This document shows positions 4,753 through 54,274 of a stretch of 64,000 bases of DNA, piece by piece. The DNA lies in the NCBI GenBank assembly GCA_963575745.1, contig CAUYUJ010018059.1, forward strand, positions 527,501 through 591,500, given 5' to 3'. The translations under genes and the position numbers were made by a program. How positions within the stretch are numbered: position 1 is the first letter of the stretch; each line of letters starts with the position of its first letter. This DNA comes from Prorocentrum cordatum. Taxonomy: Eukaryota > Sar > Dinophyceae > Prorocentrales > Prorocentraceae. The notes below the pieces were generated by a model, which saw only the letters and a program-made list of their open reading frames with translations, was not told the DNA's origin and did no database searches.

Positions 4753-4828
4753 GCTCGAGCTGATTTTGTGAAAAGCTCGAGCTTGTGCCCGCGTACTTCG
4801 AAGCGGCTCGTGGGCACGAGCCTTCCAT
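4753..4828 (+). promoter_or_regulatory. Stem-loops in the LINE 5' leader
   Basis: A perfect 9-bp inverted repeat (gctcgagct at 4753-4761, agctcgagc at 4774-4782) encloses a 12-nt loop. Just after it, gcttgtgccc pairs with gggcacgagc across about 20 nt, and ctcgtgggcacgag is a small hairpin itself. LINE 5' leaders can carry promoters or self-cleaving ribozymes; which, if any, applies here is not shown by the sequence. Confidence 0.4.
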
Positions 4829-4866
4829 TCTTCACTAAGGAGCCAAGCGTCTGCGGGAGGCGGCGC

Positions 4867-5976: not shown

Positions 5977-6049
5977 CGGCCTTGTGCGTCTTGATGCTGC
6001 CCCAGTGGCGTCTGGTGCTCCCGAGCCAGCGGCGAGGGCGAACCTCGGC

Positions 6050-9000
6050 ATGGCCGACCTCGACGCCTTCGCAAGTGGCAACATGATCGATTTCGACTGG
6101 GAGCAGGCGACGGGCTTCGCAGTCCCAGTGCTGAGGGACGACCTTGTCTTCGACACGGAGCTGTTCCGCCAGCTCGACGGGGTCGGTCTGGACCCACGGC
6201 AGTGGCCGCGCCTGGGCCACGAAGCTTCGGACAGAGACGGACGGTCTCGCGAAGCTGCCCCCCCTCGGGTCGAGGACCCTCGAAGAGGGTCAGGGCCAGG
6301 GACATCGTCTTCTGGGCCGACCTCGACCCCGACGGCATCACTTTCTGTTATGTCGCGCGAGGTGGGACCCCTCGGTCGCAACGGGGCTGGGGGCCTTCCC
6401 CGCGAGTCCACAGCTCCTACGGGTACCACCTCGGGGTCGGCGGCTCCCTCGGCTTCGGGCACCGCGTCGGGTGGAGGTACCAGGACGGCTGGTGGCGCAC
6501 CTACAGAGCGGAAAGGCCCGCACCACCTCTCCTCCCCACCTGTTCATGGACATGGTGAGTTGCAGGCTTGCGTCGCATCTGGAAGTGATGGGCCTTGTGT
6601 TCTCGATGGAGGCCTGGGTGATTTCATGGAAGGATGTGGCGGTCTGCTTCCACCTGCGGCAGGAGCTGCGGGGCGTCAAGCTAGCCCTGACGGTGTTCCA
6701 GGAGACGCACCTTCTGCGCGGAAAGGGGTGCACCATCTCTCGTCCCCACCTGGCGACGGACGCGGAAATGGAAAACTAAGTCAGGACGGCGCGGCTCGTG
6801 GAGTCGGCCACCCGGTCACGATCGTCAGCGATCTGATCATTTTTGGCGTGAACGCGAACACGTGGGACTCCTTCACCAATGTGGTAGACTGGTGTAAGGA
6901 CCAGGAAGCGAACCTCTTCGGCGTGGGGTCGGCTTCAGGCGAACCAGTCAAGCCGCATGTGATCTGTGTACAAGAGACTCGGCTGAAGGAGAAGGGTAAG
7001 TTGGACTCCGCCTACGGCTGGGGCGATCGCCACTCCTTCGCGTTTTCTCTAGGACCAGCAGCGTCCACGGGGGCAGGTCCGACGCAGTCCTCGGCAGGAG
7101 TAGGCTTGGCAGTGGCCAGCTCCCTGGCGTCTTCCAGTGTGCCATGGCCACCCGAGTTGGAATCTTTCAAGTCGCGCGTGGCAAGCAGGCACATCAACGT
7201 AGGACTCCCAGGTGGGTTGATGGTTTTCTCGGTCTACCTCTACACCAGCATTGGCGTAACAGGGGACAATGTTGAGTTATTGAACACTCTCGGCGAGTAC
7301 ATCAAGTCCCTAACATGCCTCTGGATTGTGCAAGGCGACTGGAACCTTACTCCTGAAGAGCTAGAAGCATCGGAATGGGTGTCCAAGGTTGGGGGCTGCA
7401 TGTTTACGACGGGCCACGCTACGCGTAGAGCAGGGTCCGCTCCAGGAACCACTTCGGGGCCAGAGGAGGAGGTCGACAGGAAGGATGAGCGGGAGATCGA
7501 TTTCTTCGTGGGGTCCAGGTGTGTAGGGCACTGCGTCAAGGATGCCCAGGCGTTCCCAGCGGCCCCTTCGTGGCCTCATATGCCTGTGGGTATCGTCGTC
7601 AAGAACCTGGCCCCGTCGACGGTCGTCCCGAAGCAGGTTAGATATGTGCAGTTCCCCCTGGACAAGCTTGTGGGTCCTCGGAGGCTCCCTACGGAAAGCA
7701 CGTGGTCTTGGGAAGTCGGAGGTGGCTCGCACTGTTTGGGGTCCATGGTCAGGGAATGGTTTACCCAGGCTGATGGCTGGCTCATGCAGTTCCACGACCT
7801 AGACAGTGCTAGCGCTGCCAGGATGTGCGGAAGAGCTGGGGGCCCCAAGGTCATAAAGATCCCCCTCGAGACGGTTTGGGACCGTGAGTCTAGGAGGAGA
7901 TATTCAAAGCGGACCACCAGTTGGATGTCCTTCGAGGCGTTGGCTCGTCGCGCAGCTGCAGTTGGCCAAGATATGCTAGGAGCCAGAGCACGCGGTCTTT
8001 TTCACGAATGGTGTGCCGCCCTGTTCGGGATGATCTCGGCGCTGGAGGCGCCAGACGAAGGCGCGAATGCCCGCTTTTTGATCAGCCTGGTAGAAGGGAT
8101 ATCCATGGGGCTCAGAGAGGAGTTAGAAGGGCTGCTCGGGCAGTTACGAGTGTATGTAGAAGGCCTGCGCAAGTCGGACGCCAAGGAGTCCCTGTCGGAG
8201 TGGAAGGAGTGGGCAAAGTCGTCAGTGCAGCGGGGAGGGAAGGCAGCTCATGCTTATTCCAGGGTCTCTCGCGCAGACAGGACGGCCCCGTTCAGTGTCG
8301 TAGACGACCATGGCCGCTTGCCAGTCAACAGTGAGCTTGCGCCCCTCCAGCTTCTCGATCAATGGCTTCCCCTTTGGCACAAAGAAGGCAGGCTCAGCGA
8401 ACATCACCCAGCTCATTGGGATGTGTTGGGACAGGAATTGCCACCCATATCATTGGAGCAGCTGAGGCGTGTGTGCAGCTCGTATGGGGAAGGGGCTGGT
8501 CTTGGGTGGGACTCCTTTCATCCCCGCCAGATCTTGTTTCTTCCAGAGGAATACCAGTTACGTGTTATTGACATCCTTCACTCGTTCGAAGATCGACCTT
8601 GTGTGATTGCAGAGTTTTTGGCGAATATCATCTTCCTTGATAAGCCAGATGGTGGAGTACGCCCGATAGGATTATTGTGCATGTTCACCAAGATTTGGTC
8701 GAAGTGCCGTCAAAACACCTGCCGTGCCTGGGAACAGGCCCACGAGCAGGCCTTCTTCTGGGGCGTCGGGGCCACGTCGACCTGCGAGAGAGCAGGATGG
8801 GTCCATAACATGCTGGCCCACTTCGGGAAAGTCCTAGGGACCTCGGCGGCGACGGTGCTTCTGGACCTTAAGAAGTTCTATGAGCACATCGACCATATGG
8901 ACTTGTATCGTGCGGCGTGCCAGCATGGTTTCAATTTGAAGCTGCTGCGAGGGCTGTGTGTGATTTATGCAGGGGATAGGATGCTGCACTATGGAGGGGC

Positions 9001-11347
9001 GATGTCTAGGAAGGTGCAAGGTAATGGGGCAGTGATTGCAGGGTGCTCAGCAGCTACCACGCTTACGAAGTTACTTGTGTTATCGCCGCTTGCGGCCGCG
9101 CAGTCTGGCCGGCCACAGTTGTGCATCAGGAACGTGATAGACGACATCGCGTTGCAGATTGTTGGGCCGCAGCAGCTCATTGCACCGCAGCTTGCCTCAG
9201 GAGTGCAGTCCCTGTTGTCCAGTTTCTCGGAGCTCGAGCTCCCCGTCTCGGATAAGTCGAAGTACATGACAAGCGACTTGGATTTGAATGAGGCCTTGCA
9301 GCCCCTGTGGGACCTCCCGAAGGAAAGCAAGGTGGATCATGCAAGGAACCTCGGCACCGACGCGGTGATGGGGTCCCTACGGAGGTTTCAGATCACTCGG
9401 GACAGGTGGGACAAGGCCAGAGGGAGGACGGCTAAGATTAAGAAGCTCAGGGAGGCGGGGGCCAACACGGGGTTCATTCAACGTGGAGGCCCTACAGCGT
9501 CGGCTCTATGGGGGTCCAGTATCATGGGGATTCCCTCGACCCAACTGCATCGTCTTCGATTGGGAGCTGCTGGAAGTCTCGGGAAGGCCCCCAAGGGCTC
9601 CACGGTCGGGCTCCGTCTCCAGAGTTATGCTGAAGGGGTCCGAGTGGACCCGCTGCTGTTGAACGTCGGGATGGTTGTGGTCCAATGGGCGACTGCGGTC
9701 TGGGAGTCGTTTCCGAAGCTTCCTGTCCTGGAACGGTGCCTGGAAGGAGCCCTGGGCCGTCTCGAAGGAGTTCAAACACCTTGGAGGTTAGCAGCAGCCC
9801 CAGCTGAAGTAGCCGTTCTCAGTCTCCGCAGAATAGGCTGGAGTTTGCGGTCAGGTGCGTGCATGGTCACGGATCGGCAGGAAGCACTAGACCTTCGAGT
9901 GTTACCTCCAGCGCTCGTTCAGGAGCTAGCAGTTGCAGGCGCCAGGCGAGCTTCTGATCGGCAAGCTCTATTTTGTCGCGAGCCCAAAGCCAGGTGGAAT
10001 ATGCCGATATTTTGGGCAGGACTTGAGGGGCTCCTGCATCGGACCAAGGGATCCTGGGCGAAGAGGTTTCAGAGGACGCTGAGATCTTTGGTTTCTGGAG
10101 GACACTGGCCACAAAGTCGGCTCCACCACCATGGACTTGTCGGCTCAGCGAGGTGTTGTGTATGTGGTGATCCTGAAGGGTCCTTGTGGCACAGGGCCTA
10201 CGAGTGCCCGAAGCATGCAGGGCTCAGGCGTGAATGGGTTGACGACTTCCACAGGACGAGGGCTCGCAGGGTCCGCGAATGGGGGTACGACGAGGGGGAG
10301 AGGTTTGCGAGAGGCCTGTTCCCGTCGCCAGAGTTGGTCACCCCTGTCCCGACCGATGCCCAAGAGACCATCTTGTGGCACAACAGACCTGAGTCAGGGC
10401 TCCTGAGTGGCACGCTGTTCTTAGACGGTTCGGCCCTATGGGCCTCGGCTCCGTTTTTGGCCCGAGCGGGCTGGGCCATTGTGCAGGTTGATAGGTTTGG
10501 AGATTTAGTTTCGGCGGCCTACGGGCCCGTCCCATGCAGGGTGTGTCCTAAGCAGAGCTTTAGAGACGCGGAGGATTATGCCGTCTCGATGCTGCGTGTG
10601 TGTGCTATGGCGCCCTTCGATGTCTTTATAGACAGTGCAGGCACTGTTGGGACTCTCCGTGGCGGCGAAGGCGCGGGATCCCAAAGCAGTTGTGGTCGGG
10701 CCCAGCTCTGGAGTCCGTTCTGGGGAGCGTTCTCGGAAGGGGACTTCCAAGTTTTTAAAACTAAGGCCCATTGCACCAGGGCCCAGGTAGATGCGGGTGC
10801 TACCACGGAGTGGGAGTTCAGAGGGAACGCCCACGCCGACAGGTTTGCTAAGCTAGGTGCTGCGGAGCACGGTGTGGGTGAGGAGCTGTACCAGTTGTGG
10901 CAAGGGTTTAAGTTTTTAGCCCAAGAATCCGCCCGATGGGCGGCTTGTGTGCACGTTGAGTCCGATGGCCAGGACCATGGGGACTTGATGGAAGCGTACT
11001 GGAGGTCTCGGGGCTCCGCTGCCGTGGAAGACCCTGAGGCCCCAGAGGACCCCGAGCCTGTGCCCCAGGCTTGCAGCAGTGGTGGGGAAGCGGGGTCGTC
11101 GTCGCTCGTTGGCTACGGGGTGGGCGACGGGTGGGAAGAGTATGCCGACGCCAGTTTTTGGTGGCGAGGCCACAACCTGCTGGAGGCAGACGTGCTCAGC
11201 CGCACCGCCCACGTTTCCTCGGTCGTCTTCTGCTGCCGCTGTGGCACGGTAGCCTCGGATGGCAAGCTAACTACGGGTCTCTCGGGGTGGTGCCCCGAGA
11301 AGGCCAAAGTTGGTGGTGTGGACCAGCTGCGAAGGATCAAGAAATGA
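6050..11347 (+). CDS. LINE ORF2 polyprotein: AP-type endonuclease, reverse transcriptase, RNase H
   Basis: Encodes 1765 residues from the first ATG after ORF1; the frame is open further upstream, but that part overlaps ORF1 and is not protein-like. The endonuclease shows VNAN (about 267), QET (308-310), GDWN (429-432), IDFF (D484) and an SDH-like PHM (H510). The RT shows KPDGGVRP (about 867), motif A LLDLKKFYEHID (D939), motif B GNGAVIAGCSAATT and motif C VIDDIAL (D1031, D1032). A C-x2-C-x8-H-x4-C knuckle follows at about 1370-1386. The RNase H has the full set D1459 (LDGSA), E1508, D1528 (IDSAG) and D1597 (HADRFA). A second CxxC pair lies near the end. The enzyme would nick DNA and prime cDNA synthesis at the nick. 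The stop is TGA, with an open in-frame stretch beyond it. Confidence 0.92.
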   Translation: MADLDAFASGNMIDFDWEQATGFAVPVLRDDLVFDTELFRQLDGVGLDPRQWPRLGHEASDRDGRSREAAPPRVEDPRRGSGPGTSSSGPTSTPTASLSVMSREVGPLGRNGAGGLPRESTAPTGTTSGSAAPSASGTASGGGTRTAGGAPTERKGPHHLSSPPVHGHGELQACVASGSDGPCVLDGGLGDFMEGCGGLLPPAAGAAGRQASPDGVPGDAPSARKGVHHLSSPPGDGRGNGKLSQDGAARGVGHPVTIVSDLIIFGVNANTWDSFTNVVDWCKDQEANLFGVGSASGEPVKPHVICVQETRLKEKGKLDSAYGWGDRHSFAFSLGPAASTGAGPTQSSAGVGLAVASSLASSSVPWPPELESFKSRVASRHINVGLPGGLMVFSVYLYTSIGVTGDNVELLNTLGEYIKSLTCLWIVQGDWNLTPEELEASEWVSKVGGCMFTTGHATRRAGSAPGTTSGPEEEVDRKDEREIDFFVGSRCVGHCVKDAQAFPAAPSWPHMPVGIVVKNLAPSTVVPKQVRYVQFPLDKLVGPRRLPTESTWSWEVGGGSHCLGSMVREWFTQADGWLMQFHDLDSASAARMCGRAGGPKVIKIPLETVWDRESRRRYSKRTTSWMSFEALARRAAAVGQDMLGARARGLFHEWCAALFGMISALEAPDEGANARFLISLVEGISMGLREELEGLLGQLRVYVEGLRKSDAKESLSEWKEWAKSSVQRGGKAAHAYSRVSRADRTAPFSVVDDHGRLPVNSELAPLQLLDQWLPLWHKEGRLSEHHPAHWDVLGQELPPISLEQLRRVCSSYGEGAGLGWDSFHPRQILFLPEEYQLRVIDILHSFEDRPCVIAEFLANIIFLDKPDGGVRPIGLLCMFTKIWSKCRQNTCRAWEQAHEQAFFWGVGATSTCERAGWVHNMLAHFGKVLGTSAATVLLDLKKFYEHIDHMDLYRAACQHGFNLKLLRGLCVIYAGDRMLHYGGAMSRKVQGNGAVIAGCSAATTLTKLLVLSPLAAAQSGRPQLCIRNVIDDIALQIVGPQQLIAPQLASGVQSLLSSFSELELPVSDKSKYMTSDLDLNEALQPLWDLPKESKVDHARNLGTDAVMGSLRRFQITRDRWDKARGRTAKIKKLREAGANTGFIQRGGPTASALWGSSIMGIPSTQLHRLRLGAAGSLGKAPKGSTVGLRLQSYAEGVRVDPLLLNVGMVVVQWATAVWESFPKLPVLERCLEGALGRLEGVQTPWRLAAAPAEVAVLSLRRIGWSLRSGACMVTDRQEALDLRVLPPALVQELAVAGARRASDRQALFCREPKARWNMPIFWAGLEGLLHRTKGSWAKRFQRTLRSLVSGGHWPQSRLHHHGLVGSARCCVCGDPEGSLWHRAYECPKHAGLRREWVDDFHRTRARRVREWGYDEGERFARGLFPSPELVTPVPTDAQETILWHNRPESGLLSGTLFLDGSALWASAPFLARAGWAIVQVDRFGDLVSAAYGPVPCRVCPKQSFRDAEDYAVSMLRVCAMAPFDVFIDSAGTVGTLRGGEGAGSQSSCGRAQLWSPFWGAFSEGDFQVFKTKAHCTRAQVDAGATTEWEFRGNAHADRFAKLGAAEHGVGEELYQLWQGFKFLAQESARWAACVHVESDGQDHGDLMEAYWRSRGSAAVEDPEAPEDPEPVPQACSSGGEAGSSSLVGYGVGDGWEEYADASFWWRGHNLLEADVLSRTAHVSSVVFCCRCGTVASDGKLTTGLSGWCPEKAKVGGVDQLRRIKK

Positions 11348-18905: not shown

Positions 18906-18944
18906 CGTCCACCCCGGATAACTCGGGCGCCCAACATTTGTTGT

Positions 18945-19060
18945 GGAGCATATGTTGTGCAGATCTTTGTTGTGCAGTCTACGTGGTGCAGTCCATGTGG
19001 TCCACCACGTGTGGTGTGCGAGACATGTTGCGGAAACTCTGAGGTGCAATCTGCTTGGGG

Positions 19061-19100
<40 letters not shown>
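18945..19100. repeat. GTGGTGCA minisatellite and (TA)n tract, left flank of the YR retroelement
   Basis: Short units such as gttgtgcagtctacgtggtgcag run to about 19060, then (AT)n to 19100. The same two components, in mirror order, resume at 25875 after the YR element, so they were probably one site before insertion. Confidence 0.8.
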
Positions 19101-19104
<4 letters not shown>

Positions 19105-19191
19105 AGTCGTAGACGTGAATACCCCAACAGGCCCCTCCTCGCCCGAGCTTGTAAATGCTGACCCCCCGCAACTGCGGTGGCTCAAAGTCTG
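19101..19191 (+). repeat. Split direct repeat A1 (left terminus)
   Basis: 91 bp starting gtatagtcgtagacgtgaat and ending ggctcaaagtctg. It abuts the (TA)n tract directly. It differs from A2 at two positions (gtgaata/gtgagta and gtaaatg/gtacatg). Confidence 0.93.
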
Positions 19192-19219
19192 AGAGGCCCC
19201 CAGCCGCGGCGGCCCCTGC

Positions 19220-19699
19220 ATGGACGGTGGGGCGCCTCCGCTGTGGGCGACACTGCTCACGGCGTGGGGGGCGACCTGGAGCGCCTGCTGGAGCTGGGGC
19301 TGGGGCGGAGTCACCACCCAGGCGGCTCACGCGGCGCCGTTCGCGACCTCTGGCCACTGCCAGGAGGACTCTGAGCGCTGCTCCTGCGACTGGGAGCTGC
19401 GCAAGATCATCGACCTCCAGCAGGAGGTCGGCCTCCTCCAGTCGGAGGTGTGGGCGCTGCGGTGCCTGCTGCTGGCCGGGTTTCTGCTGCTCGGCGCTGT
19501 GGCCTCTGGTGCTGGCACGCTGGGTTTCCTGGTGGGGGCCTGCCGGCGCTGCCGCTGCGGCGGGCGCGAGCGCGCGCCGGGCCGGGCGGCCGAGCCCGGC
19601 GCCCAACCGGCCGCGGCCTCGAGGGCGGCGGCGGTAGAGGGGCCGGCGTGCCCTCAGCCGGGCCGAGGGCCCTCGACGCCGAGCCGCCGGCAGCTGTAG
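19220..19699 (+). CDS. Small membrane-type protein upstream of gag, function unknown
   Basis: Encodes 159 residues from an ATG 28 nt after A1; the stop lies 4 nt before the gag-like ATG. The N-terminus is Trp/Ala-rich. Residues about 58-81 (WELRKIIDLQQEVGLLQSEV and on) look like an amphipathic or coiled-coil helix. Residues about 82-104 form a hydrophobic segment (LLLAGFLLLGAVASGAGTLG) that could span a membrane, followed by a Cys/Arg-rich cluster (CRRCRC) and an Ala/Pro/Arg-rich tail. I know no family for it. Its tight spacing to gag suggests it belongs to the element. It could also be a chance frame in GC-rich DNA, but the helix-then-membrane pattern argues against that. Confidence 0.5.
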   Translation: MDGGAPPLWATLLTAWGATWSACWSWGWGGVTTQAAHAAPFATSGHCQEDSERCSCDWELRKIIDLQQEVGLLQSEVWALRCLLLAGFLLLGAVASGAGTLGFLVGACRRCRCGGRERAPGRAAEPGAQPAAASRAAAVEGPACPQPGRGPSTPSRRQL

Positions 19700-19703
19700 C
19701 CCG

Positions 19704-20891
19704 ATGGCAGACGTGCTGACGCTGGACATCGGCGACCCGCAGATCCTGGTCCACTACCCGGACGACGAGAACGGCTTCCTCTGGCACCACAGAGTCTTGC
19801 TCTTCAGGGTGTCGGACGACATCTGGATCAGCTTGACCCCTGATCTCGCCCTGGTGCGCTTGAAGCTCCTGGACATCCGGCACGAGGTGCTGGAGAGGCG
19901 AGCCCCGTTCCCTGCCCACCTGGGCAACCAGGTCTATGCCCACGACCCCATCGCCGCCGCCGCCCTGGCGGGCTTCCGCCGCCGTGCGAAGATCCAGGGG
20001 CAGCTGCTGGGTGTGGGCCAGGTGGACGTGGTCGAGAGGATGATCTGGGTGGTGGCCGAGCCCCGGTCGGCGAAGTTCGGCGAGGTGATCGACTCGGCCA
20101 TCATGGACGACGACGCCCGCGGCACAGGCTTCGACACGAAGGGGGTGGCGGTCGTGGACGGGGAGGAGATCTTCGTGCAGAAGATCGCGGCCAGCAAGCT
20201 CGACGACTTCAAGAAGGAGACCAAGGCGGACCTCGGAGACGTGCGCACGCTCGGGGACCACCTCGACGATGCTGGGCAACGCTGCCTGAGGCTCTCGGAG
20301 GCGGTCGCCCTGATGAGAGACACGGATCAGCCGAACTTCCCGCTCGCCGGCGTGAGGAGCGTGAAGGAGTTCCTCGAGTCGGTGGCCTCCGGGCCTGGCA
20401 ACATGACGTCGTACCAGGCGGAGTGGGAGCGGCTCAGCGGAGTCGGTGAGGGTTCGGCAGTCAACCACGTGCACCGCAACTTGTGCGAGGTGATTCGGCT
20501 CATGCACTCCTGGGACCAGGTCGACGCCTCCATGCTGGCCTCTGCGGAGCTGATCGTGCGCTGGCTGGTTCAAACGGAGATAGCGGTAGAGCGCAACCCG
20601 CGCCACCCTGACTACAGCGGGCTGGACATAGTGATCTCGGCCCCGGTGAATGCAGCGGGCCGCGCGACGACGAACAAGTTCAACTCCTGGGCCACTGACA
20701 AGCTCAAGGAGAGGGCGCAGATCTGGATCAAGGAGAGGGCGCAGATCTGGAAGCAGGAGCGCCTGTACCGCGAGGAGCAGAAGACGAACCTGAAGGAGGG
20801 CAAGGGCGGCGATGGCTACGACCCGTCCAAGAAGAAGCTGAAGAAGAGAGGGGGCAAGGCCGGCGCCGAGGGCGCCGGCGAGGGAGGATGA
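19704..20891 (+). CDS. Gag-like structural protein of the YR retroelement
   Basis: Encodes 395 residues from an ATG. I do not recognise a named domain. The N-terminal half is a mixed alpha/beta-looking sequence with acidic and Trp residues (HYPDDENGFLWHHRVLLF). The middle is helical with charged heptads (about 150-200). The C-terminus is a highly basic tail containing a duplicated KERAQIW, then poly-Lys/Gly, as expected for nucleic-acid binding. There is no CCHC knuckle. Its place, first large ORF before RT, is the basis for the gag call. The stop overlaps the start of the next frame as ATGA (20888-20891), which suggests coupled translation or reinitiation. Confidence 0.65.
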   Translation: MADVLTLDIGDPQILVHYPDDENGFLWHHRVLLFRVSDDIWISLTPDLALVRLKLLDIRHEVLERRAPFPAHLGNQVYAHDPIAAAALAGFRRRAKIQGQLLGVGQVDVVERMIWVVAEPRSAKFGEVIDSAIMDDDARGTGFDTKGVAVVDGEEIFVQKIAASKLDDFKKETKADLGDVRTLGDHLDDAGQRCLRLSEAVALMRDTDQPNFPLAGVRSVKEFLESVASGPGNMTSYQAEWERLSGVGEGSAVNHVHRNLCEVIRLMHSWDQVDASMLASAELIVRWLVQTEIAVERNPRHPDYSGLDIVISAPVNAAGRATTNKFNSWATDKLKERAQIWIKERAQIWKQERLYREEQKTNLKEGKGGDGYDPSKKKLKKRGGKAGAEGAGEGG

Positions 20892-23489
20892 CGCCTCTCG
20901 GGGCTGTGGGGGAGCCGGTGCTGGCAGCCCGGGCGCCGAGAGAGCCCCCCCACAGCCGACACAGACGTGGGCTAGCCCCCTCTATTCCTGGAGGGATCCG
21001 GTCACGAGATCGACGGCACGGAGACCCTTTTCCTCTGCCCTGCGATCCGAGTGGCCTCGGCTCTGCATGCAGCTCTGCGCGGCAACGGCAAGTTTTTGAC
21101 ACGGTTCGGGCCCTGAACCAGCTTGCCGCCGCCAACGTGAATTCACGTCGCGCCCAGGGGCACGACCGCGCACCAGAAGGGCACCTCCGGCCGGCCGCCG
21201 TGCAGCAGTGGATGATCCAGAATGTCGCCCGGCGTGTACTGGCGCATGGGGATTGCCCCACTGACCTCACAGAGGAGTCATCGTTGCACGAGATCCTCGA
21301 CTCGAGACCACTACGGGATGGAGCCCAAGAACCTGGCCAGCTTCGACTTCGACAAGGTCAAGATCCTGCACAGGAAGGTCCACGTTCGGCCGATGCGCCG
21401 GGAGTTGCCCGCGTCGGCCGCTGGCTACCTTCGGCACGCTTCCGACTTGATCGAGGTGGACGAAGCGGAGCTTGAGAGAGATCGTGCCGAGGGAGTGGGT
21501 GTCACGCCATACTGGGACCCTCTCCTCCGGCGCTCGCGAGACCTTCGGAAGCGACTGTACCAGCGCCTGGACCAGCAGGGCCTGCTGACTTGGCGTCGGC
21601 GGCTGAAGGGGCATGCGGGCATCTTCGTGGTCAAGAAAAAGGATGGGCTCCAGAGGTTGATCATCGACGCCCGAGCGGCCAATCGGGCGCATCGGCCACC
21701 TCCCACTACTCGGCTAGGCTCCTCGCGATGCATGGCCGACCTCGACCTCTCCGACCCCCGCCTGAAGGCATCGGGCTTCGGGGGCCTCGGCTCCGGGGCC
21801 TTCAGCCCAGCTGGCCGCGAGGGAGACGTCGGGGACTGTTTCTACAACTTCACCATCCCCGAGCTGGCGAGCTGGTTCGGCTTCGCAGACCAGTTCGACA
21901 CCCACGAGCTGACGGAGATGGGCTGCCTGCCGGACTCGATCTGGGACGACGCCGAGGGGGCCGAGACCAAGGTCGTGGACGGCGAGCAGCTCTACCCCTG
22001 CATGTGCGCGGTGTGCATGGGCTGGTCTTGGGCGCTCTACTTCGCCAACGAGGCCGTGACCTACCGCGTCCAGCGGGCGCTGCCCGACGGGGCCGAGAAG
22101 GTGATGAGGGAGATGCAGCCTGCCCCGACCATCGAGCCCGGCAAGTGCGTTGCCGGAGTGCACGTTGACAACGTGCAGGTGATCGGAGGCTGCGAGGCTG
22201 ACGCCAACACTCAGATGCATGAAATCGAGAATCTTTTTCGAGAGGACCGTATACCTTTCGACGTGGAGCCGGGGGACAGTTTGGAGATGCAGTCCCTCGG
22301 CCTGGTGTACCACTGGCAGGAGCGTCGCCTGAGGCATGTGGCTCGGCGCGTCTGGCGGACCTACATGGCCGGACACGCCCTTTTGAGACGCCGCAAGCTC
22401 CACGGGCACGCGCTCCAGTGCTGGCTGGGGCACGTCGTGAACCTGAACCAGCTCTGCCCCGAGGCGATGTCCGCGCTGAACGCCTGCTACCGCTTCATCG
22501 AGGAGTCGCTGGAGTCGCCCAAGCGGGTCTGGCCCTCTGCGAAGTCCGAGATCCGCTGCTCGATGAACTTGCTCTTCCTGATGGAGGCGGACCTGGGCGC
22601 GACCTACTCGGACCAGGTGTACTGCGGGGACTCGTCCGGCCGCGGCTACGCACTCCACGTGACGACCGCCGAGCCGACCGAGCTCCGAGAAGCCTGGAGG
22701 TGGAGAGAACGCTGGCGGTACCGCGACGTCCCGACAGTGACGGGCCACGTCAGCAACGGGCTCGACTACGTGCGCGGCGGCACGCCCGGCACCGCCACTG
22801 GCCCGAGGACCGCCTTCGGCCAGTCCCTGCTGAGTCAGGCGGAGGTGCCAGAGGATGCGAGCGGCCTGGCTCCCTCTCCGGCCCGAAGCCGCGCTGCGAA
22901 GCCGGCTCGTGGCCGCACCCAGCTGCATCTTGACTCGGGCATCCCCGCCTTGGAGGACAGCTGGGTGGCCAGGCGCCGCTGCAAGCTGGTCGCCGCGGAC
23001 CGCTGGCGCTGGCAGGACGAGCACATCAACCTCAAGGAGGCGAGGGTCGCCTTGATGGGGCTCCGACGGCACTGCCGATCGGTGAAGTTCATGGGCACAA
23101 AGCTGCTCTCGATCAGCGACAGCCAGGTCACAGTCGGGGCCTTCGAGAAGGGCCGCTCCAGCGCGGGCCTGCAGGCCCTCTGCAGGCGCGCAGCCGCCTA
23201 CCGCCTGGGCGGGCAGATCTCCTGGCGGCTCAGGTACATCGAGACTGACCGAAACCCGAGCGGCGAGGACTCCCGGCGCTGGGACCTGAAGAAGCCTGCT
23301 GGGCTGAACCGGGGGCCCGAGCGTCGAGACGCCGCCCCGAGCCTGTCCGCTCCGGCTGCGAGTTACACGACCTCCTCCTCTTCTCGGTCACCTCCGTCGG
23401 CATCCTCAGCATCTGTTGTACGCCCGTCAATTCAGAGCGAGCCTGGTAAATCAGATTTTTTGTATGGAGCTCTTCGGTGGAAAGGGTGA
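20888..23489 (+). CDS. Reverse transcriptase-RNase H of the YR retroelement (with an apparent +1 frame change near 21300)
   Basis: Protein-like sequence starts at the ATG of the ATGA overlap with gag and runs (DPFPLPCD...VRALNQLAAANV...LHEILDS) to about 21300, then continues in the +1 frame as YGMEPKNLASFDFDKVKI. The uninterrupted downstream frame is 21222-23489 (755 codons; the numbering below starts there). RT: KKKDGLQRLIIDARAAN at about 138; motif A GDVGDCFYNF (D202, D205); motif B region MCAVCMGWSWALYF; motif C GVHVDNVQVIG (D316, N317), so the second Asp is Asn. RNase H: D470 (CGDSSG), E606, D633 (SISDS) and D683 (GEDSRR) are all present. DIRS-order RTs have this RT-RNase H order. The frame change may be a mutation, an assembly error or programmed. 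Confidence 0.85.
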
Positions 23490-24121
23490 GCTGACTCGAG
23501 CTTGCCTGGCGGAGGGGCTTCCCTTCGCGGATTCAGTTGATATCAGAGACGGCTGGGAATTTGATCTTTCTCGTCGCAGTACACAAGAGTATATCCTGAG
23601 GCTGGCCCGAGAAGGGCGTTTGATATATGTGCACCTGGGAACGCCTTGTCAGGTTTGGAGTATCGCTCGGAGGGGGATCCGAAACCACGTTCGAGCCAGG
23701 GCCCGGGAACGTCTGGGCATCGAGTTCGCACTGTTTACGGCTACGTTGTGTCATATCCTATCACGTCGTGGGTGTTATTGGAGTGTGGAAAACCCCCGGA
23801 CTTCGAGACTCTGGAACTTCGACCCGATCGCTCGCCTTCATGGACTCGCGGACGTCGTCGAGGTAAACTTCGATATGAGCATGTATGGCACGGCCTATCG
23901 GAAACCTACTCGAATCCTGACAAACCTGAGAGCGTTACAGTCCCTGGGAGATCGACTTCGCATTCGACATAAACACTCGGTCTTGCTACACGGTCATCTC
24001 ACACCACTTGCCGCCGCCTACCCGCCAGCATTGGGCTCGTGTTGGGCCAGGCTCCTTTCTTCGGCCCTGCCGGGCGACATACGCCCGGGCCAGCGAGCCT
24101 TCGACCCCAGCGAGGTCCGCC
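23464..24121 (+). CDS. DCM-like C5-cytosine methyltransferase module of the YR retroelement
   Basis: Starts at an ATG that overlaps the end of the RT-RNase H frame by 26 nt. Motif I is MELFGGKGELT (residues 1-11, SAM-binding FxGxG type). Motif IV is GTPCQVWS with the catalytic-type P61-C62. Motif VI is SVENPR (E109-N110-P111). Spacing between them fits bacterial C5 methyltransferases. It continues with a segment ending HLTPLAAAYPPALGSCWARLL at about 24055. No clear motif VIII-X or target-recognition domain is seen, so it is short and may not be a complete enzyme. The frame stays open to 25278, but from about 24120 the sensible protein is in the next frame, so I end the call where the recombinase starts. 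The end is approximate and not at a stop codon. Confidence 0.72.
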
Positions 24122-25330
24122 ATGGCCTCCAGCGGGCCGCGGGCCGTCGCCCGGCGGCTCGAGGAGCAGCGGTTCACGGTGAGGTCGATGAACCCCGTGA
24201 GCCAGCCTGCCAGGCCGCCGACTCGTTCCTCGAGCACGACCCGATCATCCAGTTCGGCCAGGACGAGCGGCCCCGGCGCTGGAGGGCCCACCCGGACTGG
24301 GCGGCAGCCGCCACCGGGGAAGGGCCGACCGCGGCAGCCTACAGGCCCCCGGCGGGCAGGCCCCATCACCGTCCCGCGGAAGGACTCGCTGATCATGGCG
24401 ACGGTGACCGGAGGCACGCTGGAGAGGTACGCGACGGCGGTCCACGAGTTCGAGACCTACGCGAAGGAGAAGCGCCTGCCGCTGCAGCCGCTGGCACGCC
24501 TGGACGACAGCCTCTCCCTCTACTTCGTGGACCTGTTCGACGACGGCTTCGGGGTCTGGGAGGGGCGCAACGCCTTCTACGGGTACAAGCTGCTGAAGCT
24601 CAGGACGACGGGCAAGGTCGACCTCCCAAAGGCGCTGGCCTCCCTGAAGGGTTGGACGAAGCGGGCGCCCGGGAGGATGCGTCTGCCGCTGCCCGACATC
24701 ATCGTGGACGACATCGCGCTGGACCTGGTGGAGCACGGGAACCCCCTGATGGGGGCCGCGGTGGTGATCCAGACAGACACCTACACGCGGCCCTCCGAGG
24801 TGGTGGGGCTGAGGCAGGGCCAGATCTTGCCGCCGGCGCCGGTCGCGAAGCTCGGCGCGCACTATGGCATCGTCATCGCGCCCTCGGAGTGGCACGAGAC
24901 CACGAAGACGGGCGGCCAGGACGACAGCCTGCTCGTGGGCGACGTGGCGAGGCCCTGGCTCACGAGCGTGCTGCGGCTGCTCCACAAGCCCAACGTGTCG
25001 GACAAGAAGAAGATCTTCGACTTCACCCTCGGCGACTACGAGCGCGAGGTGAAGAAGTCGGCCTGCCGCCTGGGCTACACCGCCCTGGGCGTTTGCCCGC
25101 GCGTCTTCCGGCACTCGGGCGCCAGCAACGACAAGGCGCACTCCCGGAGGACGTTGAAAGAGGTTCAGAAGCGCGGACGATGGGCATCCTCCGCGTCGGT
25201 GGCTCGCTACGAGAAGGGGGCCCTGATCTTGCAGCAGTTGCGCAAGGTTCCCTTGGCCAAGCAGAGGAGGGCGGCTGAGCGCAGCAAGCGCCTGCCGCAC
25301 GTCCTCCTTCAAAAGATTCGTGAAATGTAG
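24122..25330 (+). CDS. Tyrosine recombinase (integrase) of the YR retroelement
   Basis: Encodes 402 residues from the first ATG of the frame; ATG at 24395 is an alternative that removes a Pro/Ser/Arg-rich N-terminus. A core-binding helical domain begins at GTLERYATAVHEFETYAKEK. Catalytic residues are visible: box I Arg R223 (TYTRPSEVVGL), a likely beta-hairpin Lys in HETTKTGG, box II RVFRHSGAS (R330; the usual His three residues before is Arg, R327), W354 in GRWASS, and nucleophile Tyr Y363 (ARYEKG). This matches DIRS/Ngaro recombinases, which insert a circular cDNA by strand exchange without a target duplication. It ends 25 nt before B1. Confidence 0.88.
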   Translation: MASSGPRAVARRLEEQRFTVRSMNPVSQPARPPTRSSSTTRSSSSARTSGPGAGGPTRTGRQPPPGKGRPRQPTGPRRAGPITVPRKDSLIMATVTGGTLERYATAVHEFETYAKEKRLPLQPLARLDDSLSLYFVDLFDDGFGVWEGRNAFYGYKLLKLRTTGKVDLPKALASLKGWTKRAPGRMRLPLPDIIVDDIALDLVEHGNPLMGAAVVIQTDTYTRPSEVVGLRQGQILPPAPVAKLGAHYGIVIAPSEWHETTKTGGQDDSLLVGDVARPWLTSVLRLLHKPNVSDKKKIFDFTLGDYEREVKKSACRLGYTALGVCPRVFRHSGASNDKAHSRRTLKEVQKRGRWASSASVARYEKGALILQQLRKVPLAKQRRAAERSKRLPHVLLQKIREM

Positions 25331-25355
25331 CGGCCACCAGTTCATGATACGGGTA

Positions 25356-25539
25356 TGGGCGAAAGAGGGGCCGTCCAAGATGACAGCCCGACGATGTTCG
25401 ACAATTTATCTCGTCTCAGGCCTGAGCTTCGATTGGATTACCTTGTCAGAGAGTGCGTGTGAAAGGTGATCCAAAATATATCGCACAGCTTCGCTGGATA
25501 TGCATGTCTGGGCGAGGTTTTTAGGCCATCTAGGGGTGT
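25356..25539 (+). repeat. Split direct repeat B1
   Basis: 184 bp from tgggcgaaagaggggccgtc to taggccatctaggggtgt. It is identical to B2 and joined without a gap to A2, which resembles the head-to-tail junction expected in a circular intermediate. Confidence 0.95.
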
Positions 25540-25630
25540 GTATAGTCGTAGACGTGAGTACCCCAACAGGCCCCTCCTCGCCCGAGCTTGTACATGCTGA
25601 CCCCCCGCAACTGCGGTGGCTCAAAGTCTG
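25540..25630 (+). repeat. Split direct repeat A2
   Basis: 91 bp, 89 identical to A1. Followed by 60 bp of sequence not found in A1 before B2 starts. Confidence 0.95.
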
Positions 25631-25690
25631 CCCGCCCTCAGCCACCCTCGAGCTCAGCACGCCTCGCTCGTAATTCAATGCTTTTTCCGC

Positions 25691-25870
25691 TGGGCGAAAG
25701 AGGGGCCGTCCAAGATGACAGCCCGACGATGTTCGACAATTTATCTCGTCTCAGGCCTGAGCTTCGATTGGATTACCTTGTCAGAGAGTGCGTGTGAAAG
25801 GTGATCCAAAATATATCGCACAGCTTCGCTGGATATGCATGTCTGGGCGAGGTTTTTAGGCCATCTAGGG

Positions 25871-25874
<4 letters not shown>
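25691..25874 (+). repeat. Split direct repeat B2 (right terminus)
   Basis: Identical to B1 over 184 bp. It ends in ctaggggtgt and passes straight into (AT)n. Confidence 0.95.
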
Positions 25875-25912
<38 letters not shown>

Positions 25913-26060
25913 CGCCATCTGCGCGGTGCAATCTTTATGGTGCGATCGTCGTGGTGCATTCGGTGTGGTGCAAACCACGTTGTGCAATTTATTTTGTATT
26001 GTCCATGTAGTGCAATCGGCATGGTGCAATCGACGCGGCGCAGCCTATGTTGAGCAGTTC
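25875..26060. repeat. (TA)n and GTGGTGCAAT minisatellite, right flank of the YR element
   Basis: (AT)n to about 25908, then units such as gtggtgcaaaccacgttgtgcaat to about 26060. It mirrors the left flank at 18945-19100. Confidence 0.8.
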
Positions 26061-26820: not shown

Positions 26821-28340
26821 GCATCTTGGGAGCCTCTTGGGGCACTCTTGGGGCCTCCTGGGGGCTTTCTGGAAGCCTCTTGGGTGTTTCCTTGGCCCGC
26901 CCGGCGCCGTCTGAAACTGACTTGGGGGCGTCTCTGGACCGACTTGGGGCCTTCCTGGGGTACTCCAGGGCCGTTTTGGAAGCCATCTTCTGTGTCTTGA
27001 AGGCCTCTTGGGCCGCTTGGGGCCCTCTTGAGGCCGTCGTGCGGGCCTCTGGGGCCGTTTTAGTGCCATCCTGGAGGCCTCTTGGGCGATCTTGGGGCGA
27101 TGTTTGGGGGTTGTTGGGTCGACTCGGGCCGTCGGAAGGCCGAACAGAAGCACATGCCAAAATCCTTCAAACACCATGGGAACATCATTGATTTGTGCCT
27201 TTGGTGGCCTTCCTGGAGGTCCTCTTGGAGGCCTCTGGGGCCGTCTTGGAAACTTCTTCGTTGACTCTTGGGTCATCTTGGCCCATCTTGGAGCTATCTT
27301 GGGCCGTCTCCGTCTTGGTGGGCTCATGGCCCTCACGCAGTTGGAAGCCGTGTTGTGGGCCTCTGGGCCGACTTGGGGCTCCCTTGGGGTGCTCCAGGGC
27401 TGCCTTGGAGGCCATCTTAGGCCGTTCTGGGGCCATCCTGGGGGCCTCTTGGGTGATTTTGGAGCGATTTTTGGGTGCTCTTGGGCCGAATCGGGCCGTC
27501 GAAAGGCCGAAAAGCAGCCAATGCCAACATCATGCAACCACCCGGGGCAAATCAATGTTTTTGGCATCTGGGGGCTTTCCTGGGGGTCCTCTTGGAGGCC
27601 TCTGGGGTTGTCTGGGGGACCTCTTCGGGGCCTCTTGGGCCGTCTCGGGCCATCTTGGAGTCATCTTGGACCGTCTTGGGGGCCTCGCTGGGCCGACTTT
27701 GGACCGTCGTGGAGGCCATCTTGGGCGTCTTGGAAGCCTCTTGTGCCGTCTCGGTGCCCTCTTGGGGCCGTCATGGGGGCCTCTGGGGCCGTTGTGGGGC
27801 CATCCTGGAGGCCTCTTGGGCGATCTTGTGCCGATCTTTGGGGGCTGTTGGGCTGTTTCGCGCAGTCGGAAGGCCGAACATAAGCAAATGCCAACATCCC
27901 CCACCCTAGGAGAATTTGTGATTTTGGCCTCTTCGGGCCTTCCTGGGGGCCCTCTTGGTGGCTTCTTGGGCCGTCTTGGAGGCCTCATGGGGGCTGCTTG
28001 GGCTGTCTGCCGTCTGCTCGAGGCCGTCTTGGAGGCTTCTTGGGCGAACTTGGAAGCATCTTGGATTTTTTGTTGGGCCGTCATCGAGGCCATCTTGGAC
28101 CATCTTGGGCGAATTCGGAGGCCATCTTGGCTGTCTTGGAGGCCATTTTGGAGCCATTCGGACCAGGAACATGTTGGCAACCAGGTTTTCGGCGTGGCTG
28201 GCGGGACGGGCGGAAGACCCACTCTTTTGGAGAAAGGGCCAACACCAAACCGTATATGGTTCAGCACGCTGGGCACCCTTGTGACAAGACCACAAGGGGG
28301 CGGCGGATCGAATGGCCTTCGGCCCATCCCGCCACCGTGC
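26821..28340. repeat. Tandem repeats of about 370 bp of the CTTGGAGGCCTCTTGGG family
   Basis: A landmark of about 80 bp (ttgggggttgttgggtcgac, cgggccgtcggaaggccgaa, catgccaacatc) recurs near 27095, 27462 and 27832, i.e. 367-370 bp apart. Short cttggaggcctct words lie between. The end (28190-28340) is similar to 430-660. Long open frames on both strands (up to 438 codons) are repeat translations rich in Gly/Leu/Trp or Pro/Arg. Confidence 0.8.
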
Positions 28341-37212: not shown

Positions 37213-37420
37213 AGGACGTGGAGCAGCAGGACGCGGGGCAGGGGATGGGGGAGTTCTTTTTAGAGGCACCCCTGCGACCCCTGCTTTTTCAGAAGGCGCG
37301 GACCTTGCCTGTGGTGGATGTAAGGCTGGCACCCTGGAAGTAGGGGCCTCCTTCTAAACAACCTTCTCCTGTCCCCCTTAGCTTCCTTTTGCGCGCCGCC
37401 AAAGGACGTGGAGCAGCAGG
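37213..37420 (+). other. Candidate intron of 190 bp bounded by 18-bp direct repeats (introner-like)
   Basis: aggacgtggagcagcagg occurs at 37213-37230 and again at 37403-37420. Splicing at AG|G within both copies removes 190 bp (37230-37419), with GA at the donor and AG at the acceptor, and joins a short exon (ATG at 37189, MSREWVASRTWSS...) in frame to ...RENAGNYMHVSGEDSD of the channel ORF. 190 is not a multiple of 3, and the two repeat copies are in different frames, as this needs. Non-canonical donors and repeats at intron ends are known in dinoflagellates. The intron is inferred, not proven. Confidence 0.5.
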
Positions 37421-37438
37421 GAGAACGCGGGGAATTAC

Positions 37439-40204
37439 ATGCACGTCAGCGGGGAGGACTCCGATGCCAGCGTGTCCGACGAGGATTCGGACGGCTTCAT
37501 GGAGTTCGAGAGGGACGCGATCGCAGGCCCCAGTATGGAGAGGCTCTTGGAGAAGGCCAGCGCTGGGCAATGGCCGCTTGAGCGGAGGTCTCGGGTGCTG
37601 GAGGAGGCCGCACTGAAGGGCGAGCTCGTGAGGATGTTGGAAGCTATCGACATGCCGCTGTTCATGCACGTGCGACTTGCCAGCAGCTACTTCCAGCTGG
37701 CGGGTAAACAATTCAATGCGATGGACGAGGAAAGCGACGAGGAGAACGGGGGGTCCAAGAAGCTCTCCAGCCGGAGGGGCGACGCAAGCTGGCTGCAGCC
37801 ACCATCACGATTCGCGCGCCTGCTGTCGAATTATTTGATCGTGCCAGGGGTGCCCGTCTATAAGTGGCTGGAAGAGTCGGAAGTGCAGATGGTCGTGTTC
37901 GATGGTAAAGAGCCGGTCGAACATGGCATGCGCGATTTCCCTGAAAAAATCGGCGCGTTCTACCTCACTCCTCGCGTCGAGTGGAAAGGCGACAACATGA
38001 TTTACGAAGTACTGGAAGGCGAGGGTCGCTTCACTGTTTTGCATAGCCACAGTACCCTCCATAATCTGGCGGCCACGGAACCGTTTGACTTCAATTTCCC
38101 GCTAGGTAAGATCCCGCATGGCATAGCACCGGAGGCTACGAAGAAGTTCGCTTATGTATATCCGCATTTTCACTTCAGAACTGGGGGGTTCCTGTACTTG
38201 GGCGCAGGTTTAGAGTGCCTAGCGGTAAGCCAGCTCACTGCGAATGTCAGTTCCCACGGGGTGCGGATGGGAGAGAGATTCCGGGAGGGTGTAGACAAGG
38301 GGCAGGATCTGAAGCCTCAGCCGACGACGCTGCCTGCCATCAAGCGCAAGGGGGCGACACATTTCTGTTTCTATGGGCCAAATTATTTCCATAAGGATAA
38401 GGGCATGGGCGGGTTCGTGTACTGGTTCGAGGACGACAAATCCGACATCTCGTACTTCCCGATCCGCTATTTCTCCAAGGTGTTGGAGCACGGCCCGGCC
38501 GGCGCCGTCGGCAACGCGAAGCTCTTGCCCAGGAAGCCTCACAGCAACATGGTGGTCGACGGCATCATGACGGACCGCTGGCACAGCGAAAGTAGAGGAC
38601 TCACGTACCAGATCAGGCACGGATGTGTGGACATGAAGGTATGCAAGCTGAAGCAGAAAGGCTTGACCCATCCTGTCGTATTGAGGAGCCTCGTCTTCAC
38701 GCCCGAAGAGTGCCTACTGGAGTCGGAGCAGGTTCAGGCGATCGTAACAGCAGCCTTCCATACATGCTCAATGGTTATTGTCCGGGAGATGTTCATTATC
38801 GCGAGTATGATGGTATCGATTTTCAGATTTACGTATTCGTTCCGGAATGAGTCCCCCGATGCTTGGGGTACCCGAAGATGGACGTCTTTCGAGTGGGCTC
38901 TTCTCGGCGTGATGGTCGCAGCATGGACCATGACTGTCAGCAGGTTGCTGTTTGGCATCGTGGGATATCGCGTCATGTTTGGAAGCTTTGACGGGTATTT
39001 CTTGTACAGTTACCGCACGTGTGTATGGTGGTTACAGAGTTTCACGGTGATCTGCCTCATTGTGATGCTGTTGAGAGGCACCTTGTATTACTTCCCCAGG
39101 ACGGCGGCAATTGCTTTTGCGTCGTCAGGAGCCTTCTGCTGGATGGAGTTGTTGTTCCTCGCGAGGTCCTTCACTGTTATTGGGAAGCGGTTTCTCCCCA
39201 TCATGAGTGCATGGAGCGACGCGACGTCATTCCTCTTCGTGACATCGTTCATCTTGGCAGCTTCTGTTCAGGCGTCGTACTCTCTGACTCGCCTACCGCT
39301 GTCGGCAATCGCATTCGACACCTACCGCATGGGATTTCTTGGCGAGCTGAAGCCCCGGCTGTTCGTGAGCCAGGCGTTTGATCTGGACGAACATCCGGAC
39401 GCCATGAGCAGTCTCGACATGCCCGAGGGGTCTCGTACCAGTTTCGGCTACATCGTCCTGATGATATTCGGATTCATCCTGATGGTGTCGATGGCCAATA
39501 TCTTCATTCAGGTGATGGGCGACGCGTACAGCTCCAACAAGCAGAGGGTGCAGGCCACGCTGACGCGAGCACGGGCCGAAGAGAGCCTCATCTGCGCCCT
39601 GTGGATGGCGGGGCGCGAGAAGCTCCTGCCCCCGGCGCTGCGGACGGCCATCCGCGCGGCCCCGCGCGACGAGCTCGTGTGGTTCACGCGGAGGGACGCC
39701 GGCGCGTTCGGGGGCGACAGCGACGTGGACCCGGCCAGCCCCCAGCAGGCGATCATCGCGGCCGTGGCGGCTGCCGTGGCCGTGGCCGCGACGGGCACGC
39801 AGAGCGGCAGCCATTCGGCTCGCGCCCGGGCCGCCGGGCAGGCAGCCACGCAGGCCGCGGGCGGGCTCGGCGGATGCGCCGTCTCGGGGGCACTGGAGCT
39901 CAGAGGAGGAAGAGGTGCCGATACCGCTGCCCTGGCCTCGTCTTCACCCTCTTGGGCCTCCCGGGAGGCCCTCGTCGCTACCGCTGAGTTCGCTCCGAGA
40001 TCCTTGTCAGAACGCACACCTGGAGAGGTCCAGAGAGCAGCGGTGTCGGTACCTGTCTGGTTTCCCAAGGAGTTGGCGGTGGAGAACGCGGTGCTGGAGG
40101 CCACCCACAGCAGCAGGGCTTCACCGCCGCTTCGGTCCGCCGCGCGCGCGGCCGTCACGGCTTGCAACGCGTGCCGCCGCATGTCTGCGGGATTGGGAGG
40201 GTGA
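37439..40204 (+). CDS. TRP/polycystin-like six-transmembrane cation channel
   Basis: Encodes 921 residues from an ATG; an upstream exon is possible. The acidic N-terminus and a soluble region of about 430 residues are followed by six hydrophobic segments at about 437-468, 488-517, 525-552, 555-587, 594-620 and 667-700. A likely pore stretch lies before the last one. The last segment reads FILMVSMANIFIQVMGDAYS, closely resembling the end of S6 in TRP and polycystin channels (NxxI/VxxMGDxY). S4 has few positive residues, so strong voltage gating is not expected. The C-terminal 220 residues are Ala/Arg/Ser-rich, and residues about 826-872 overlap an inverted-repeat element, so the true end may be earlier or altered. 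The codon pattern and unbroken length support a real host gene. The exact subfamily is uncertain. Confidence 0.75.
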   Translation: MHVSGEDSDASVSDEDSDGFMEFERDAIAGPSMERLLEKASAGQWPLERRSRVLEEAALKGELVRMLEAIDMPLFMHVRLASSYFQLAGKQFNAMDEESDEENGGSKKLSSRRGDASWLQPPSRFARLLSNYLIVPGVPVYKWLEESEVQMVVFDGKEPVEHGMRDFPEKIGAFYLTPRVEWKGDNMIYEVLEGEGRFTVLHSHSTLHNLAATEPFDFNFPLGKIPHGIAPEATKKFAYVYPHFHFRTGGFLYLGAGLECLAVSQLTANVSSHGVRMGERFREGVDKGQDLKPQPTTLPAIKRKGATHFCFYGPNYFHKDKGMGGFVYWFEDDKSDISYFPIRYFSKVLEHGPAGAVGNAKLLPRKPHSNMVVDGIMTDRWHSESRGLTYQIRHGCVDMKVCKLKQKGLTHPVVLRSLVFTPEECLLESEQVQAIVTAAFHTCSMVIVREMFIIASMMVSIFRFTYSFRNESPDAWGTRRWTSFEWALLGVMVAAWTMTVSRLLFGIVGYRVMFGSFDGYFLYSYRTCVWWLQSFTVICLIVMLLRGTLYYFPRTAAIAFASSGAFCWMELLFLARSFTVIGKRFLPIMSAWSDATSFLFVTSFILAASVQASYSLTRLPLSAIAFDTYRMGFLGELKPRLFVSQAFDLDEHPDAMSSLDMPEGSRTSFGYIVLMIFGFILMVSMANIFIQVMGDAYSSNKQRVQATLTRARAEESLICALWMAGREKLLPPALRTAIRAAPRDELVWFTRRDAGAFGGDSDVDPASPQQAIIAAVAAAVAVAATGTQSGSHSARARAAGQAATQAAGGLGGCAVSGALELRGGRGADTAALASSSPSWASREALVATAEFAPRSLSERTPGEVQRAAVSVPVWFPKELAVENAVLEATHSSRASPPLRSAARAAVTACNACRRMSAGLGG
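39914..40053. repeat. MITE-like inverted-repeat element inside the channel ORF
   Basis: 140 bp with termini ggtgccgataccgctgcc (39914-39931) and agcagcggtgtcggtacc (40036-40053), which match as inverted repeats at 15 of 18 positions. The right-hand 100 bp recurs, inverted, at 44759-44858 with high similarity. A perfect 18-nt palindrome (gggcctcccgggaggccc) lies inside. No clear target duplication. Confidence 0.6.
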
Positions 40205-54225: not shown

Positions 54226-54274
54226 TGATGACGATGACGATGACGACGATGACAATGACGATGATGATGATGAC

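Follow-up and report, generated by a model that had tools for sequence, protein, structure and literature searches.

A recently amplified family of probable tyrosine-recombinase retrotransposons with split direct repeats and a methyltransferase-like Pol domain in the dinoflagellate Prorocentrum cordatum

Introduction

Subgroups within the DIRS order of retrotransposons are told apart by their repeats, by a methyltransferase domain and by phylogenetic trees, and Ngaro elements are set off from DIRS elements mainly by having no methyltransferase domain, as stated in the parts of two publications cited here (PMC4157794, PMC6681497). According to the cited part of a third publication (de Mendoza 2018, PMC5890265), the methyltransferase of the DIRS class has been described as an adenine, Dam-like enzyme. 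The same part presents SymbioDIRS-Dnmt3 from Symbiodinium, an element with the order A-coding-B-A-B, a methyltransferase in Pol and a separate open reading frame (ORF) for the tyrosine recombinase (YR); the SymbioDIRS DNA methyltransferases were found with the profile PF00145 and fall in the Dnmt3 clade (PMC5890265). In this study, we analyzed a stretch of 64,000 nucleotides from the dinoflagellate Prorocentrum cordatum (GenBank assembly GCA_963575745.1, contig CAUYUJ010018059.1, positions 527,501 to 591,500 of the forward strand), hereafter called the window, and a 6,774-bp element at window positions 19101-25874 together with its copies in the genome. With high confidence we assign the element to the YR retrotransposons of the DIRS order, with split direct repeats of the PAT/Ngaro type, as a member of a recently amplified dinoflagellate family. 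Comparison of the copies showed precise ends, the repeat layout, the order of the predicted ORFs, purifying selection, and two integrations apparently free of target duplication.

Materials and Methods

The genome searched comprised 4.13 Gb in 21,875 contigs. For the search with A1 and ORF1, 40 of 101 first-look candidates were scored, and all counts of places in the genome are lower bounds. The close family examined consisted of 20 fetched loci and the window (21 loci); fetched loci carry L numbers. The ratio of nonsynonymous to synonymous substitution rates (dN/dS) among copies was calculated from 17 copies, leaving out L016 as a duplicate of L017.

Results

The element is built in the order A1, ORF1, gag-like ORF, Pol, YR, B1, A2, spacer and B2, that is A1-coding-B1-A2-spacer-B2 (Table 1). 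The preliminary description of this DNA had reported the termini A1 and B1-A2-B2 with identical 184-bp B copies, and this was borne out: B1 and B2 show 0 differences in 184 positions, A1 and A2 show 2 in 91. Allowing up to 2 mismatches, a 15-base segment of A occurs nowhere in the window except in A1 and A2 (shuffled sequences: 0.05 on average). Among the scored places in the genome, at least 23 including the window matched at 95-100% identity and at least 8 at 70-72%; at least 9 matched A only, and 8 of these share their contig with a listed element. All four repeats were present in 17 of the 21 close-family loci. L016 leaves its contig inside A2, while L018, L021 and L024 contain the 5′ part only within the fetched stretch; L016 and L017 are the same insertion. 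Divergence among the 18 aligned copies was mostly 1-3%, with L027 about 7% away, which supports a recent amplification. A second, more distant family is represented by L031, which contains the four repeats and all ORFs in the same order with some frames broken; protein identity between the window family and L031 was 61-79%.

The recurrence of the same four repeats excludes a local assembly artefact, the possibility that the preliminary description had named as its own refutation. It is also hardly credible that misassembly or segmental duplication, and not a mobile element, lies behind the repeat array: such an origin would agree with L016 and L017 being one insertion and with the left flank common to L019 and L020, but the remaining loci combine different flanks with constant ends, and insertion-free relatives were found for two sites.

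The left end starts with GTATAGTCG in all 20 readable loci of the close family, and the base 5′ of A1 is T in all 20 readable left ends, counts in which L016/L017 and L019/L020 are not independent; L011 has an N at this position. Of the 8 loci from other families, 7 likewise have T before A1, and L034 has C. In 14 of the 17 four-repeat copies, the right end does not vary through CTAGGGGTG, except for a single altered base in L009. Thirty bases across the B1-A2 junction show no difference among 15 of the 17, with one base off in L009 and L027; the junction has the appearance of the two ends of a circle joined together. Leaving out copies with a cut or unreadable repeat, B1 and B2 differ on average at 1.0 positions within a copy and at 5.3 between copies (14 copies), and A1 and A2 at 0.69 and 2.15 positions, respectively (16 copies). 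A and B are therefore closer within than between copies on average, which fits ends that are regenerated together. The clearest case of renewal is L027: its B1 and B2 are identical, and any other B2 is at least 12 differences away. In L010 and L012, the B2 match stops at position 168 and 166 of 185, respectively, and is followed by similar sequence in both despite different left flanks; their bodies are only 0.25% apart.

With respect to integration, the window element sits in a (TA)n run within a degenerate host minisatellite of 14-bp period, which it splits; allowing up to 3 mismatches, 3 units lie on the left and 8 on the right (window-wide rate 0.22 per 150 bases). The right flank opens in a simple repeat in 8 of the 14 copies with constant right end, as judged by eye and without a control. 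For L015 and L020, the closest insertion-free relatives are 84-87% identical and gapless within 30 bases on either side of the junction; the one gap in the best insertion-free match of L015 lies at the extreme right of the match. At these two sites, the comparison showed integration apparently without duplication or loss of target sequence. A YR is expected to insert without duplication, a DDE integrase is not. None of the other loci yielded a usable insertion-free site; matches for L011 and L026 were left out, the former having used an internal end and the latter being a simple repeat. The L020 copy lies in a relative of a CCAAGAGGCC-type repeat, which thereby supplied the insertion-free comparison. 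A tandem and dispersed repeat rich in CCAAGAGGCC-type units is present at 26976-28008 of the window and in L019, L020 and L031.

The four predicted ORFs show purifying selection among copies, with dN/dS mostly above 0.6 in frames other than the coding ones. ORF1 contains a single strongly hydrophobic, membrane-spanning-like segment (amino acids 77-95, mean hydropathy 2.17). Its dN/dS is 0.23 among copies and 0.53 and 0.61 between families, so that purifying selection between families seems to act more weakly on ORF1 than on the other ORFs. For the gag-like ORF, values of 0.21 among copies and 0.14-0.15 between families were obtained. It is frameshifted in L023 and lacks its usual stop in L009; it has no Pfam match, and its 395 residues include 2 cysteines and no CCHC or C2H2-like zinc-finger pattern.

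Pol starts with an ATGA overlapping the gag stop, and this overlap is kept in 17 of 18 copies. The motifs of the reverse transcriptase (RT) were located at 21831 (A), 22017 (B) and 22161 (C, HVDN) and those of RNase H at 22620, 23028, 23109 and 23235; they are ordered and conserved within and between families. Of the 18 aligned copies, 15 have YVDN as their RT box and the other 3 have HVDN. In 300-base windows, dN/dS of Pol is mostly 0.1-0.3, with 0.37 and 0.49 in two RNase H windows, and RT/RNase H of the window family against L031 gave 0.26. NCBIfam gave no match for RT and one meaningless match for RNase H, IMG/VR contained no relatives of RT, and comparisons with sequences and profiles of the PDB gave nothing meaningful.

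The last part of Pol carries GTPCQ at 23638 and ENP at 23788. The motif order FGGxG, GTPCQ, ENP, YRKPTRILTN presumably corresponds to that of C5 cytosine methyltransferases, which it resembles. The PHROG DNA methyltransferase family phrog_2882 was matched in all 5 aligned members, four of them near-identical, with weak E values of 3e-4 to 6e-4 (best 3.2e-4). RT motif B and a methyltransferase motif share one ORF in 16 of 17 listed copies, the list leaving out L025, whose motif B reads differently; the exception is the window copy, where RT and methyltransferase are in separate frames. Judged by dN/dS, constraint within the element is strongest in the methyltransferase core. Among copies, the 300-base windows of the methyltransferase go down to 0.09-0.15, the lowest values by a small margin, as isolated windows of gag, RT and RNase H come to 0.11. 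Against L031, the core gave 0.10 and the whole 238-residue stretch 0.16. Towards the 3′ limit of the methyltransferase, selection weakens in the Pol frame, and the YR frame takes over. PF00145 was not matched at E values up to 10, a search in which the HMMER filters drop most matches above about 0.1. NCBIfam gave no methyltransferase match, IMG/VR and prokaryote genomes contained no relatives, and the best tblastn match in phages (E 0.1, over 42% of the domain) was to a hypothetical protein. A single-sequence AlphaFold model reached a mean predicted local distance difference test score of 34 and was not used further.

The YR starts with its first ATG at the same offset in all 18 copies and matches a PHROG integrase profile (E 3.3e-6). 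In the window copy, the catalytic R lies at 24788, RxxR at 25100 and Y at 25208. The order RT, RNase H and YR motifs given by the preliminary description stands; its reading of the recombinase box as R...RxxR does not hold for most copies, as the box is HxxR in 15 of 18 and RxxR in 3 (window copy, L009 and L027). The catalytic R is present in all 18 aligned copies and the Y in 17, being absent in L023. Among copies, dN/dS is about 0.3-0.5, and the C-terminal part against L031 gave 0.21. Searches of NCBIfam and, by tblastn, of phages gave no YR match, and the PDB gave nothing meaningful in a weak search, where the L031 row of the alignment was out of frame halfway. Dual coding of the YR region was considered as well, as many copies have no stop in the Pol frame over most of YR. 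This candidate was rejected: synonymous shuffles of the YR of one copy keep the Pol frame fully open in 8.4% of 5,000 cases, and dN/dS in the Pol frame across YR is about 0.7-0.95, so that the open frame was taken as an effect of composition.

All four frames are open in at least 5 of the 18 aligned copies under a strict motif check. The window copy carries two Pol frameshifts that are absent from 17 of 17 other aligned copies, and two changes in catalytic boxes: the RT box has His in place of Tyr, a change shared with L016/L017 and L031, and the YR box has Arg in place of His, a change shared with L009 and L027. Because of these frameshifts and changed residues the copy is probably inactive, and the earlier suggestion that it might be active found no support. 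It is very unlikely that the window copy is active and its frameshifts are assembly errors; its identical B1 and B2 and the existence of copies with four open frames would be in line with this, but both frameshifts are private to it and RT and YR motif residues are changed as well. The window copy is probably defective and not autonomous, although sequencing error may contribute to its differences, and would depend on other copies for any movement of which it is still capable. The family was recently active, even if the window copy is probably broken.

Table 1. Features of the element and of its flanks (window coordinates).
Feature	Position	Strand	Basis or remark
Degenerate minisatellite of 14-bp period (GTGGTGCAATC-like)	18931-19062 and 25909-26060		left and right of the element
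A1 terminal repeat, 91 bp	19101..19191	+	repeat comparison; T at 19100 travels along
ORF1, 159 aa, membrane segment	19220..19699	+	open in 18/18 aligned copies; 3 bases deleted in one of them
gag-like ORF, 395 aa, lysine-rich C-terminus	19704..20891	+	named by position only
Pol, first part, putative RT and RNase H	20888..23489	+	motifs, selection; frame broken in window copy
Pol, last part, C5-type DNA methyltransferase-like domain	23464..24180	+	motifs, weak profile; 3′ limit approximate
Tyrosine recombinase ORF from first ATG	24122..25330	+	PHROG integrase, motifs, selection
B1 repeat, 184 bp	25356..25539	+	repeat comparison
A2 repeat, 91 bp	25540..25630	+	repeat comparison
Unique spacer between A2 and B2, 60 bp	25631..25690	+	
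B2 terminal repeat, 184 bp, right end of element	25691..25874	+	

In the window family and in L031, the end of the A repeats lies 4-5 bases past a block that matches, exactly or closely, the 3′ end of the spliced leader of dinoflagellates, the leader sequence being taken from the cited part of PMC12014239. This 3′ end, TGGCTCAAG, is exact in L029, L031, L035 and L036 and one base short in L030 and L032-L034, four loci each; these 8 loci are homologous and stand for only three families, and L029 and L035, identical around the left end, may be one insertion. In the window family, TGGCTCAAAG, which has one extra A, is found in every fully read A copy, with one change in A1 of L022. Exact TGGCTCAAG occurs 10 times in the loci L009-L036 (28 loci, 228,155 bases, both strands), with 5 occurrences in A repeats of two families and 5 elsewhere, 2 of the latter in the flank of L013. 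The window contains neither exact TGGCTCAAG (0.70 expected) nor the 21-base leader with up to 3 mismatches. That the element uses the host spliced leader in its replication, an idea formed after seeing the sequence, appears quite unlikely to us. The genomic RNA would then be trans-spliced near the A end and lose most of A1, which would be regained by strand transfer from A2; a transfer through short leader-like identity would explain where the A repeats end, and the leader should be joined at TGGCTCAA(A)G in element transcripts. The two occurrences in the L013 flank belong to a real leader-like tandem of two units (CCATTTTGGCTCAAG) at L013:9705-9740 (+), as expected of a retrogene.

Elsewhere in the window, a 2,191-codon open frame at 4772-11344 (+) has two weak matches below the Pfam cut-offs, one to an endonuclease/exonuclease domain (E 8.5e-4) and one to RVT_1 (E 1.2e-4), arranged in the order known from long interspersed nuclear elements. 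A 940-codon open frame at 37382-40201 (+) with several hydrophobic segments resembles TRP/polycystin-type channels by eye and has no Pfam match at E values up to 0.01. A 90-bp tandem repeat with 11.4 copies and 94% matches is located at 53205-54227. No Rfam match was found in the window, and no plasmid match was obtained.

Discussion

In line with the earlier view, the results support a YR retrotransposon that is complete, has split direct repeats and resides in a genome of dinoflagellate size (4.13 Gb). The features shared with the DIRS order are the YR, split terminal repeats with internal copies (17 of 21 loci, and L031), and the absence of a target-site duplication at L015 and L020. Several observations weigh against the assignment. 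No transcript, circle or new insertion was seen. The second aspartate of the RT box is an asparagine ([Y/H]VDN instead of YxDD). RT and RNase H, which were identified by motifs and selection only, gave no Pfam match at E values up to 10, nor did YR; the methyltransferase is without a Pfam or PDB match, the weak PHROG match being its sole profile support. The right end is altered in 3 of the 17 four-repeat copies (L010, L012, L014), and a foreign B2 is closer than the own one in 4 of 14 copies (L009, L011, L013, L023) and equally close in 6 of 14. Also, the insertion-free sites belong to repeats that share only 69-87% identity, and some of the weaker insertion-free matches carry small gaps near the junction. 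Of the three distant loci fetched, L029 and L030 gave 5′ parts only (matching ORF1 and gag in L029, and ORF1, gag and part of RT in L030). Finally, L019 and L020 have a common left flank and different right flanks with bodies 1.3% apart, for which reason some loci may be recombinant or mis-joined.

Taking the element as a YR retrotransposon, we propose the following life cycle. The element RNA would be copied by RT/RNase H, and the internal B1-A2 would supply the terminal pieces missing from the RNA. Where its ends are joined, the resulting circle would have the same sequence as the B1-A2 junction. The methyltransferase domain of Pol may modify the cDNA or its target, and the YR would open the circle at GGGGTG-T-GTATAG and insert it, often in TA- or T-rich sequence.

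As to classification, split direct repeats fit PAT, Ngaro and VIPER. In its order A1-[ORFs]-B1A2B2, a length of about 6 kb, GC-richness, YR and protist host, the element resembles Ngaro elements including that of Cafeteria burkhardae, as described in the cited part of PMC8547959. The Ngaro elements of the cited descriptions are without a methyltransferase domain, whereas the element described here has a C5-type methyltransferase-like domain in Pol, recognized by a weak profile match and motifs, which speaks against a strict Ngaro assignment. A Ngaro element in the strict sense that merely took up extra cargo is therefore unlikely, the domain in Pol being strongly constrained. PAT-like elements (Pat1, Kangaroo, Toc) also combine split direct repeats with a methyltransferase domain in the sources cited, and the element shares this combination; its motifs are of C5 type, unlike the Dam-like methyltransferase described for the DIRS class. 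It also differs from Pat1, and in this respect from Pat1 only, by having no zinc knuckle in the gag-like ORF, Pat1 being characterized by a zinc finger in Gag.

The RT box has a parallel outside the order. The cited parts of PMC554778 and PMC9094657 report YVDN, with the same Asp-to-Asn change, in nematode BEL/Pao elements (Cer7-Cer12, Atlas), which belong to a different retroelement order with long terminal repeats and a DDE integrase. Mutation of either aspartate inactivates retroviral RTs according to the cited part of PMC554778, and the conserved [Y/H]VDN box provides a second setting, beside nematode BEL/Pao, for asking whether RT works with Asn.

The preliminary description had considered the layout unlike that of standard Ngaro elements and possibly the mark of a new lineage. 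The first point holds with respect to the methyltransferase-like domain, but a layout with the methyltransferase in Pol has already been published for Symbiodinium, and by this publication the second point was largely anticipated; what differs is the methyltransferase, the membrane ORF and the host. A literature search limited to open-licence papers found no title or abstract on such elements in Prorocentrum. Based on the cited part of PMC5890265, the element agrees with SymbioDIRS-Dnmt3 in the repeat layout A-coding-B-A-B, in methyltransferase and RT in one ORF, in the separate YR ORF, in an RT poorly recognized by Pfam and in the dinoflagellate host. It differs by a methyltransferase without a PF00145 match and by a host outside Symbiodinium, and that part of the description makes no mention of a membrane-segment ORF1. 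Membership in the SymbioDIRS-Dnmt3 lineage, with a Dnmt3 diverged beyond recognition by the profile, is quite possible in view of these likenesses, yet we lean against it, since the SymbioDIRS enzymes are recognized by PF00145 and group with Dnmt3, whereas the best profile for the Prorocentrum domain is a phage methyltransferase family. The element thus extends methyltransferase-carrying YR retrotransposons, probably beyond the Symbiodiniaceae, to a member with a different-looking methyltransferase. Thereby it becomes testable whether such elements captured methyltransferases repeatedly and whether they mark their own cDNA.

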